This document shows, one piece after another, positions 15,335 to 55,020 of a stretch of 64,000 nucleotides of DNA (position 1 is the first letter of the stretch; every line of letters begins with the position of its first letter). The position numbers were made by a program, and so were the translations under genes. The notes below the pieces were generated by a model. The model ran no database searches, was not told the DNA's origin, and saw only the letters and a program-made list of their open reading frames with translations. The DNA comes from Streptobacillus moniliformis DSM 12112 (GTDB lineage Bacteria > Fusobacteriota > Fusobacteriia > Fusobacteriales > Leptotrichiaceae), in contig NC_013515.1 of assembly GCF_000024565.1 (NCBI RefSeq), forward strand, positions 682,001 through 746,000, in the 5' to 3' direction.

Positions 15335-15363
15335 TTGTAATTTATTTAAATATGTGATATTAT
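15335..15363 (+). promoter_or_regulatory. promoter of the metNIQ attenuator
   Basis: TTGTAA at 15335-15340 and TATTAT at 15358-15363, spacing 17. The predicted start near 15370 leaves only about ten bases before the leader-peptide ribosome-binding site, typical of attenuator transcripts. Confidence 0.75.
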
Positions 15364-15393
15364 ACCTTTGTAATAATTTTGGAGGATAAAAAT

Positions 15394-15441
15394 ATGATAA
15401 ATAAAGTAGTTACATTTAAAATGAATATGATGCACATGTAG
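15394..15441 (+). CDS. methionine-rich leader peptide of metNIQ
   Basis: A 15-codon ORF (MINKVVTFKMNMMHM) with a GGAGG ribosome-binding site at 15381-15385, ideally spaced. Five of 15 codons are Met, four of them among the last six (positions 10, 12, 13, 15). It is the first ORF of the transcript of the methionine ABC transporter and ends just before a hairpin series that includes a rho-independent terminator. This is the layout of ribosome-mediated attenuation leaders (as in trp or his operons), here suited to sense charged Met-tRNA. That role is inferred from sequence; I know of no named family for it. Confidence 0.75.
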   Translation: MINKVVTFKMNMMHM

Positions 15442-15445
15442 AAAT

Positions 15446-15500
15446 GCTTGTATCTTTTGGTACAAGCCATTTGTGTTTGTGCCTTGAATGTAGCTATATA
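15446..15500 (+). promoter_or_regulatory. pause hairpin and antiterminator segment of Met attenuator
   Basis: A hairpin begins four bases after the leader stop: GCTTGTATC (15446-15454) pairs with GGTACAAGC (15459-15467) around a TTTT loop. Then GTGCCTTGA (15479-15487) can pair, with one bulged T, with TCAGGCAC (15503-15510), the left arm of the terminator, giving an antiterminator. Further, GCACA inside the leader Met codons (15432-15436) is complementary to TGTGC (15478-15482), so leader RNA free of a stalled ribosome could block the antiterminator. The pairings are read from sequence; the switching order is inference. Confidence 0.6.
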
Positions 15501-15531
15501 AGTCAGGCACTAAAGCCTGACTTTTTATTTT
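15501..15531 (+). terminator. attenuator terminator before metN
   Basis: Perfect 8-bp stem AGTCAGGC (15501-15508) / GCCTGACT (15515-15522) with a 6-base loop, followed by TTTTATTTT. It lies after the leader peptide and directly before the metN ribosome-binding site (AAGGAGG), so it must be bypassed for expression. Confidence 0.88.
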
Positions 15532-15542
15532 AAGGAGGAATA

Positions 15543-16520
15543 ATGTCATACTTAGTGATAAAAAATTTAACCAAAAAATTTAATGAAAAAATAGCTGTAG
15601 ATGATGTAAACTTAGAAATATCAAAGGGAGAAATATTCGGTATAATTGGTTTATCTGGTGCTGGAAAATCAACTTTAATTAGAATGATAAATAAGTTGGA
15701 AAGCCCTACATTAGGAACAATTTATAATGAAAATAAAGATATATTTAAATTTAATGATATAGAAATTAGGGAATATAGAAAAAAAACATCAATGATATTT
15801 CAAAGCTTTAATTTATTATCATCTAGGACAGTATTTGAAAATGTAGCCCTGCCATTAGAGATATCAAAATTTTCAAAAAATGAAATTACTGAAAAAGTGA
15901 ATGAACTTCTTATGTTAGTGGGACTGGATAAATTTAAAAATGAATATGTAAATAATTTAAGTGGAGGTCAGAAACAAAGAGTGGCTATTGCAAGAGCACT
16001 TTCTACTAATCCAGATATATTATTATCAGATGAATCTACTTCAAGTTTAGATCCTATAACTTCTAATTCAATATTGGAATTACTAAAAGATATAAATAGA
16101 AAATTAGGAATTACTATAATACTTATAACTCATCAAATGGAAGTTATAAAAAAAATATGTGATAGAGTTGCTGTTATGAAAGATGGTAAAGTAATAGAAG
16201 TATCAACAGTTAAAGAATTATTTATTAATCCTAAAACTAGTTTTTCAAGAGAGTTAATAAGTGATTTAAAAATAGAAGTTCAAAAAGGAAAAGAAAATAC
16301 ATTAAGTTTAATATTTGATGGTGAACAAGCTGATAAACCATATGTTTCAGAATTAACTAGAAAGTTTAACTTAGATATTAATATATTAGGTGGATCAATT
16401 GATACGTTAGCAAGTGGGATTAAAGTAGGTCATTTAAATATAAGTTTAGAAACAAATAATATTAATGAAGTAATAAATTGGTTAGAAAATGTTGGAATTA
16501 AGGTAGAGGTGGTAAAATGA
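15543..16520 (+). CDS. metN: methionine ABC transporter ATP-binding protein
   Basis: A 325-residue ABC ATPase. Walker A is GLSGAGKST (near residue 38), the signature is LSGGQKQR and Walker B is ILLSDESTSSLD. A C-terminal extension (about residues 250-325) is the NIL/ACT-like domain that in MetN binds methionine and inhibits transport. With MetI and MetQ downstream it forms a D/L-methionine importer at the cytoplasmic membrane. The stop overlaps metI by four bases. It has a strong AAGGAGG site placed after the attenuator terminator. Confidence 0.96.
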   Translation: MSYLVIKNLTKKFNEKIAVDDVNLEISKGEIFGIIGLSGAGKSTLIRMINKLESPTLGTIYNENKDIFKFNDIEIREYRKKTSMIFQSFNLLSSRTVFENVALPLEISKFSKNEITEKVNELLMLVGLDKFKNEYVNNLSGGQKQRVAIARALSTNPDILLSDESTSSLDPITSNSILELLKDINRKLGITIILITHQMEVIKKICDRVAVMKDGKVIEVSTVKELFINPKTSFSRELISDLKIEVQKGKENTLSLIFDGEQADKPYVSELTRKFNLDINILGGSIDTLASGIKVGHLNISLETNNINEVINWLENVGIKVEVVK

Positions 16521-17161
16521 TTATTAAATCTATATTTGAAACTATATATATGATATCTGTGGCAATAATTATTGCAAGTATAATTGGATTTCCACTAGGT
16601 ATTTTACTTTCAATTACAAAAGAGGGTTCTATTTCAGAGAATAAGACTTTAAATAAAATTCTTGATTTAGTAATAGTTAATATAACAAGATCTATACCTT
16701 TTGTAATTTTGATTGTACTTTTAATTCCTTTATCGAGATTAATAGTTGGTAAATCATATGGTACAACTGCATTTATTATTCCATTATCTATAGGAACTGC
16801 ACCATTTGTTGCTAGAATTATAGAAAATTCATTAAATGAGGTTAGTTATGGATTAATAGAGGCAGCTATTTCAATGGGTGCAACTAATAAAGATATAGTT
16901 TTTAAAGTTTTAATACCTGAGGCAATACCTTCAATAATTAATGGATTAACTTTAACTTTAATTTCACTTGTAGGTTTTTCTGCTATTGCTGGAATAATAG
17001 GTGGAGGGGGATTAGGAAATTTGGCCGTTATAGAAGGTTTTCAAAGAGGAAATTATAAATTGATGTATTTATCAACATTTATATTAATAATAATAGTTCA
17101 AATAATACAGTTTATAGGAACTAAGATAGTAAAATATATTGAAAAGAAAAGAGGAAGATAA
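16517..17161 (+). CDS. metI: methionine ABC transporter permease
   Basis: A 214-residue permease with about five hydrophobic segments and the BPD_transp_1 EAA loop (YGLIEAAISMGATNKDI..VLIPEA), which docks to MetN. Motifs NITRSIPFVILI and AGIIGGGGLGNLA are typical of MetI. It overlaps metN by four bases and ends one base before the metQ start. Confidence 0.95.
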   Translation: MIIKSIFETIYMISVAIIIASIIGFPLGILLSITKEGSISENKTLNKILDLVIVNITRSIPFVILIVLLIPLSRLIVGKSYGTTAFIIPLSIGTAPFVARIIENSLNEVSYGLIEAAISMGATNKDIVFKVLIPEAIPSIINGLTLTLISLVGFSAIAGIIGGGGLGNLAVIEGFQRGNYKLMYLSTFILIIIVQIIQFIGTKIVKYIEKKRGR

Positions 17162-17162
17162 A

Positions 17163-17957
17163 ATGTTTAAAAAAATAATATTAGCAATATTAACATTCGT
17201 TTTAATATCATGTGCAGGTGGTAAAGGTGAAAATGAGAGTACAAAAAAATTAATTTTAGGAGTTTCTCCAATACCACATAAAGAAATAGTAGAATTTATT
17301 AAAGATGATTTAATTTCTGAAGGAATAGATCTTGAAATAGTAGTGTTTAATGATTATGTTCAACCTAATATATCATTAAATGATGGAAGTATAGATGCTA
17401 ACTATTTCCAACATATACCATATATGGAATCATTTGGAATAGAAAATAATATAGATATGGTTAGTGCTGGTGCAATACATTTAGAACCTTTAAAAGCTTA
17501 TTCAAATACAGTTAAAAGTATAGAAGAAATAAAAGAAGGATCAGAAGTTTTGATACCAAATGATCCTACAAATAGAGGAAGAGCTTTATTATTATTAGAT
17601 GCTTCAGGATTAATTAAATTAAATAATAGAGATAAATTAGATGCACGTATTTCTGATATTGTAGAAAATCCTAAAAAATTAGTAATTACAAGTTTAAATT
17701 CTGAGCAAATTGCACCAAGATTATCTGAGGTTACATTAGCTATTATTAATACAAATAATGCTCTTGCATCAGGTATAACAGGAGATAAGGCAGTAATAGT
17801 TGAAGGAAAAGATTCACCTTATGTTAATGTAATAGCAGTTTTAAGAGGTAAAGAAAATGATGAAAAAATACAAAAATTAGTTAAAGTATTACAAAGTGAT
17901 AAGGTGAAGAAATTCATAACTGAAAAGTATAATGGAGAAGTAGAAGCTGGATTTTAA
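17163..17957 (+). CDS. metQ: methionine-binding lipoprotein
   Basis: A 264-residue MetQ/NlpA-family lipoprotein. The signal peptide ends in the lipobox LISC (Cys about residue 17), followed by LGVSPIPHKEIVEFI, the typical start of the fold, and DANYFQHIPYME, TNRGRALLLL and NTNNALASG, which line the methionine site. It delivers methionine to MetNI at the outer face of the cytoplasmic membrane. ATG 17163 was chosen because it gives the complete signal peptide and has GAGGAAG upstream. Last gene of the attenuated operon. Confidence 0.95.
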   Translation: MFKKIILAILTFVLISCAGGKGENESTKKLILGVSPIPHKEIVEFIKDDLISEGIDLEIVVFNDYVQPNISLNDGSIDANYFQHIPYMESFGIENNIDMVSAGAIHLEPLKAYSNTVKSIEEIKEGSEVLIPNDPTNRGRALLLLDASGLIKLNNRDKLDARISDIVENPKKLVITSLNSEQIAPRLSEVTLAIINTNNALASGITGDKAVIVEGKDSPYVNVIAVLRGKENDEKIQKLVKVLQSDKVKKFITEKYNGEVEAGF

Positions 17958-52655: not shown

Positions 52656-53268
52656 GTGTGACTTGAAAGTCGCATAGATAATTGTTTAACTAAATAAAGA
52701 TTAAACCCTCTATTCCGTTAGAGGTAGCCTAATACCACCTGCTTTATCAGCAATGATAATGTTTGGAAGCTGGTATGATAATGTAGCCCTCCACGAAAGT
52801 GGTAAAGTCGAAGCCGTGAGGCTAAGGTGAATCTGCTAGCAGCAATGCGGTTAGGGAGCTAGGCTTGAGTAGTATGGCTAACATAAGTGAACTGTCATTT
52901 AAACGTCGTAATGTCCAACGAGCCAAAGTTGCTGATAGGCTCCAGCCCAAAACGGGAAGCGGTCAGTTAATTCTCTCCATGGTAGAATTACACGGATATA
53001 AGTACCGTCGGCGAATGAGACAGAGCCTAACCTACTCTTGTTATCTATGTGGAACAAGGTAAGCCTGTATCTCTCCTAAGAAATTAGGAAAGTACTTCGT
53101 AAGAAATACCGATAGAGGTGCAGGTATAGGATTGTAGAAAAAGCGAATGTCATTTTGTAATGAAATGAATAGGGGTTCAAGATTTGCCCTAACCCGAAAG
53201 GGTGCAGACTTCTACGTAAGGTAATTCTTTACAAGAAACTTATAGAATTTTTGAAAGGAGTAAAGCAA

Positions 53269-54902: not shown

Positions 54903-54945
54903 TTGACTAGCCGACATCTGTATTGGCAGATGTTTTGAATTGCTT

Positions 54946-54979
54946 GAGCCGTGTGAGGGGAAACTCTCATGCACGGTTC
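54946..54979 (+). ncRNA. group II intron domain V
   Basis: A 34-base hairpin, GAGCCGTGTGAGG at the left and CTCTCATGCACGGTTC at the right, with a GAAA tetraloop and the AGC catalytic triad at 54947-54949. This is the active-site RNA of group II introns and is undamaged. Confidence 0.92.
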
Positions 54980-55020
54980 TTAGAGGGGAAAGGGATAGTA
55001 ATATCCCTGACCTACTCGAC

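Follow-up and report, generated by a model that had tools for sequence, protein, structure and literature searches.

Leader-peptide attenuation is a classical regulatory mechanism. In the trp, his, thr, ilv, leu and phe attenuators of Proteobacteria, a dedicated promoter is followed by an open reading frame (ORF) that is led by a Shine-Dalgarno (SD) sequence and rich in the relevant codons, by competing RNA pairings and by an intrinsic terminator. Exchange between T-boxes and leader peptides has been described, with Proteobacteria, Actinobacteria and bacilli the only groups named, and the histidine leader of Bacillus hisZ/hisS* is a case of a leader peptide standing in place of another RNA sensor (PMC2965389). 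Methionine is rarely the amino acid that a leader peptide senses: the literature searched yielded one earlier proposal, made on weak grounds, of a Met leader peptide (metL) before metNIQ in Streptomyces lividans (PMC8079986). A further methionine-related transcription attenuator is the SAM-I riboswitch (S-box, RF00162), which is located before metN in Fusobacteriaceae.

We analysed a 64,000-nucleotide stretch (the window) of a 1,673,280-base Leptotrichiaceae genome, in which a leader upstream of metN very probably controls methionine uptake by ribosome-mediated (trp-type) transcription attenuation, with Met-tRNA charging as the signal. The leader shares with the proteobacterial attenuators all the elements listed above but differs in that methionine, the amino acid of the start codon as well, would be sensed, an importer would be controlled and the host belongs to Fusobacteriota; moreover, the ORF contains one of the switching arms, and arms 1 and 2 have a further conserved hairpin between them. 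Unlike this leader, that of hisZ/hisS* uses His codons, precedes tRNA-synthetase-type genes, replaced a T-box and belongs to Firmicutes, whereas S. lividans metL (MSTTSDRTPATEATTTPGARCMCRRMCAF) contains two internal Met residues, is encoded by a leaderless transcript, comes without a typical terminator according to its authors and without comparative support, and shows no evident sequence likeness. SAM-I differs in having a SAM aptamer and no ORF.

Architecture of the leader

Promoter, SD, ORF, hairpin, antiterminator and terminator stand in series before an intact metN-metI-metQ operon, all on the + strand. The promoter-like site (15335-15363) has a -35 element TTGTAA, a 17-base spacer and an extended -10 element TATTAT preceded by TG; it is retained among Streptobacillus relatives, and the number of promoter-like sites shows no excess over shuffles. 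By sequence inspection, an SD GGAGG (15381-15385; SD present in 14 of 14 leaders) leads a 15-codon ORF encoding MINKVVTFKMNMMHM with stop codon TAG (15394-15441), in which Met occupies codons 1, 10, 12, 13 and 15. The last four of these (15421, 15427, 15430 and 15436; together 15421-15438) are the proposed stall sites and form a cluster that is in frame in ten of ten homologous leaders. The window has 63 SD-led ORFs with lengths of 8-50 codons, of which only the leader ORF has at least three Met in six codons (0.3 expected per simulated window), and across 452 kb of loci examined every Met-rich SD-led ORF was a leader before metN, with one exception inside an upstream gene.

The ORF is followed by a middle hairpin (15442-15472; core GCUUGUAUC-UUUU-GGUACAAGC at 15446-15467), conserved and drawn from the fold and the alignment, which is perhaps a pause hairpin. 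Arm 2 (15478-15497) combines UGUGCC, the 5' part of the antiterminator, with UUGAAUGUAGCUAU, the partner of arm 1a, as assigned by the fold, the native-partner test and masked folding. The antiterminator (15479-15510) joins GUGCCU (15479-15484) to AGGCAC (15505-15510) according to the alignments, where GUGCC and CAGGCAC show no variation, and to masked folding. The intrinsic terminator (15501-15531) reads AGUCAGGC-ACUAAA-GCCUGACU plus a U-run, with its stem at 15501-15508/15515-15522; two terminator-like sites were observed against 0.1 expected. Compared with shuffles, the leader RNA folds with a stability of z = -6.4, and 0 of 200 shuffles were as stable.

In the minimum-energy fold, arm 1a (15406-15419), inside the ORF, forms 14 base pairs with 15484-15497, an assignment also made by the native-partner test, and arm 1b GCACA (15432-15436) pairs with UGUGC (15478-15482), a pairing retained in relatives. 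The predicted fold thus shows the ORF itself as a switching arm. The original prediction had named the promoter, the 15-codon ORF with five Met codons, the hairpin and the terminator, all of which lie where it placed them, and the antiterminator that it outlined can pair. Its switching path, through arm 1b, is present in the minimum-energy fold, but the main arm, 1a with its partner, had been overlooked.

Downstream, the top NCBIfam models for all three genes are those of a methionine ABC transporter, with scores below the curated cut-offs: metN (15543-16520, +; 325 aa) best matches TIGR02314 ABC_MetN (340.7 bits, under the equivalog cut-off), the permease gene metI (16517-17161, +) PRK10782 MetI (202.2 bits, slightly under the cut-off) and the lipoprotein gene metQ (17163-17957, +) PRK11063 MetQ, followed by TIGR00363, both under their cut-offs. 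On the 5' side of the promoter-like site is a 211-aa ORF that has no match in NCBIfam. Elsewhere in the window, group II intron RNA matches at 52706-52858 and 54944-55020 (+ strand), ~2 kb apart, probably represent one intron.

Conservation across relatives

We collected metN homologues from 33 family genomes and read their upstream regions. Every one of the nine genomes in a Leptotrichiaceae clade of four genus-level groups (G000, G030, G031, G032, G001, G019, G020, G028 and G029) has a leader of the same design before metN, and a tenth such leader lies before a second, non-orthologous metNIQ operon of G030 (L130/L038, G030:C322). The operons after these homologous leaders are complete metN-metI-metQ. 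MetN open frames measure 243 and 261 aa in L036 (G029) and L134 (G028), so that the C-terminal region of their relatives' MetN is missing there. A Streptobacillus notomytis record and G031, of the same genus as the window, agreed at all 700 bases compared, which identifies the window's genus as Streptobacillus.

The peptides of the eight other main leaders are MINNVVTFEMNMMHM, MINKVVTFKMNMMHM, MINIVVILKKKMMHMY, MKFAITLMMHM, MKKFAKNMMMDM, MQFTTNFMMMYMCLSL, MNNYALTLMMMYMCR and MKYTTTFMMMHMYT, and that of the second G030 leader, before the paralogous operon, is MKNLVVVNVMMMHT. Each copy carries an in-frame Met-Met-x-Met or Met-Met-Met cluster, and the distance from start codon to cluster is 21, 24, 27, 30 or 33 bases, all multiples of 3 with no internal stop. 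SD, start codon, frame and Met cluster are conserved and the N-terminal half of the peptide is almost freely variable; Met codons that are unpaired in the fold are invariant, with variable codons adjacent to them.

A covariance model of the leader, built without the second G030 copy and searched in 98 Fusobacteriota genomes, recovered that copy at 57.5 bits and gave strong matches only in the nine clade genomes. The best match outside the clade (G087, E 3.6e-5) and the three other outside matches inspected resembled terminators but lacked both a Met leader and metN. A pattern scan of named genomes returned two true matches, S. notomytis and O. miroungae; the other five were in unrelated organisms, a number as expected by chance. 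By DNA search, the leader occurs once in the window's source genome, the remaining matches being to the metN portion of the query, and the leader pattern also matched once, at the window's leader. The nine main copies group as one clade (98/96) in the MetN tree, and the second G030 copy falls in a different paralogue group; the leader must therefore have been copied or moved from one operon to another.

Other Met-rich leaders exist in the family. In the large-genome relatives G024 (L044 from 468), G025 (L042 from 784) and G027 (L043 from 726), a second metNIQ operon follows a different ORF of 47-50 codons, in which a stretch of ~12 codons includes eight Met, and a terminator. In G021, metN lies downstream of a leader ORF, MKRFREAMCMS (L017 about 1255-1416); an 11-base pairing joins the beginning of this ORF to a segment that precedes a strong terminator. 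Masked folding of these four leaders gave no clear stall-dependent antiterminator, and they are thus suggestive only; together with the clade's leader, they suggest that Met leaders have more than one origin.

Compensatory evolution of the switching arms

The strongest result, obtained by comparing sequences, shows compensatory evolution of the 1a:2b pairing. From genus to genus, little sequence likeness is left in arm 1a, in the first half of the ORF, or in 2b, which follows GUGCC, so that most arms would pair poorly with partners from other genera; within each leader, complementarity is retained. Native 1a:2b duplexes average -13.7 kcal/mol compared with -4.5 kcal/mol for duplexes formed between clades; across seven representatives, the native assignment of partners outranks every other among 5,040, and shuffled partners equal the native duplex in at most 1 of 500 cases for each leader. 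An alignment of relatives had been the check proposed with the original prediction, and it finds the ORF and its Met codons conserved over the four genus-level groups alongside this compensatory change.

Computed ribosome switch

We folded the RNA of ten leaders up to just past arm 3, keeping unpaired the 28 bases that a ribosome would cover. When one of the cluster's Met codons occupied the A site, the antiterminator reached a probability of 0.97-1.00 in nine of the ten leaders, the exception being G032 (at best 0.42 with the standard footprint). It fell to 0-0.14 without a ribosome and to about 0 when the stop codon occupied that site, and the last Met codon of the cluster usually had the same computed outcome as the stop. 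A scan of all codons indicated that stalls upstream of the Met cluster mostly or often antiterminate too, so that the folding model alone does not single out Met; an excess of Met codons among the permissive positions depended on the footprint assumed (p = 0.09, 0.003 and 0.43) and was not robust. For full-length RNA, the terminator was favoured in most leaders even with a stalled ribosome, and the switch must therefore be kinetic, with the antiterminator acting before arm 4 is made. In classical attenuators, the antiterminator likewise acts before the 3' arm of the terminator is made.

Methionine sensors and synthesis in the family

A search with RF00162 in the 98 genomes found no SAM-I riboswitch in any of the nine leader-bearing genomes and exactly one in 22 of the 24 other family genomes; the two others without one (G023 and G026) are incomplete genomes. 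By coordinates, SAM-I lies before metK in other Leptotrichiaceae, for example G027, G010, G014 and G021. All nine leader-bearing genomes retain metK, without SAM-I, and the six metK upstream regions inspected show no leader, with a reading frame extending to metK. The leader itself matches neither SAM-I nor any other known RNA family (Rfam) at gathering score, a permissive search giving weak, chance-level matches only, and the T-box covariance model (RF00230) has no match in the leader or in the nine genomes. From these sequence searches, the Met leader appears to take the place of the SAM-I riboswitch, one RNA sensor being exchanged for another.

The MetH-type domain PF02574 is absent from all nine leader-bearing genomes and the MetE-type domain PF01717 from six of them, which consequently lack both synthase domain types. 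Given these absences, Streptobacillus and the Oceanivirga group are predicted to be methionine auxotrophs reliant on uptake.

Proposed mechanism and alternatives

The leader has an SD-led short ORF rich in codons for the regulated amino acid, an intrinsic terminator between this ORF and the first structural gene, an antiterminator exclusive with the terminator, pairing of the ORF to an antiterminator arm, and downstream genes for the same amino acid. Starting from the sequence elements, their conservation, the 1a:2b compensation and the switch computed under a masked ribosome, we infer Met-tRNA as the signal, ribosome stalling and termination in vivo. RNA would start near 15370 and a ribosome would load on the 15-codon leader. 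With ample Met-tRNA, the ribosome would reach the stop codon, 1a (and 1b after ribosome departure) would pair with arm 2, and arm 3, left free, would form the terminator with arm 4, ending transcription near 15530. With scarce Met-tRNA, the ribosome would stall on the Met cluster, masking 1a and 1b; arm 2 would pair with newly made arm 3, the terminator would come too late and metNIQ would be transcribed. If no ribosome had loaded, the terminator would form.

The leader could instead be a new Met- or SAM-binding riboswitch whose aptamer includes the conserved hairpin, with the ORF incidental or secondary. The lack of SAM-I in the nine genomes would suit such an element, as would conservation in primary sequence, which across genera extends over the middle hairpin and over UUUGCGUGUGCC: at window positions 15442-15478 and their equivalents (alignments A1 and A3), GCUUGUA..GGUACAAGC and UUUGYGUKUGCC are sequence-conserved. 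This exceeds what trp-type attenuation needs, and a pause or factor site in the hairpin and adjoining UUUGYGU segment is possible. Yet SD, start codon and frame survive several in-frame length changes, unpaired Met codons are invariant, the computed fold switches by ribosome position alone, no Rfam family fits, and some metNIQ operons elsewhere in the family have unrelated Met-rich leader ORFs in front of them; a riboswitch is accordingly quite improbable. It is likewise improbable, to much the same degree, that the MMxM peptide acts as a nascent-peptide sensor, arresting the ribosome when a ligand such as free Met or SAM is present, with an identical RNA switch following. The remainder of the peptide is highly variable, the residue between the Met residues may be His, Asp or Tyr, several peptides extend 1-4 residues past the cluster, and termination is the predicted outcome when the ribosome sits at the stop codon, all of which weigh against such a sensor, even though the cluster is C-terminal, often adjoining the stop codon, and the same RNA switch would be used.

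A constitutive leader, with hairpins only tuning expression and the Met run a product of chance or a by-product of RNA pairing, would find some footing in the last Met codon, which lies in or adjoins paired arm 1b and is therefore constrained by that pairing. The remaining Met codons, however, are unpaired yet invariant, and the rarity of Met-rich SD-led ORFs in the window and in the other loci examined is hard to attribute to chance; we regard this explanation as extremely improbable. The Met leader-peptide attenuator, as originally predicted, is supported by the conserved frame, Met cluster, antiterminator, terminator and switching complementarity. The accompanying view that a Met leader on metNIQ is not a standard described class has to be softened, since the S. 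lividans proposal means that this kind of leader is not wholly unprecedented, although it came without a terminator or comparative support. For Fusobacteriota, no Met leader attenuator was found in the open-access literature.

Methionine starvation should also lower initiator Met-tRNA, opposing antitermination. Because a shortage would thus cut leader initiation and the ribosome-free state is predicted to terminate, a biphasic response is predicted. Tentatively, and with more doubt than confidence, we suggest that methionine control in the clade moved from a SAM riboswitch to a Met-tRNA leader peptide with such a response, in which moderate shortage opens metNIQ (stall) and severe shortage closes it (no leader initiation). 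The locus provides a comparatively supported Met leader in Fusobacteriota, where related bacteria have a SAM riboswitch, and the apparent exchange of sensors occurs in genomes that are also short of methionine synthase genes. It raises the question of how an attenuator functions when the limiting amino acid also starts translation of the leader.
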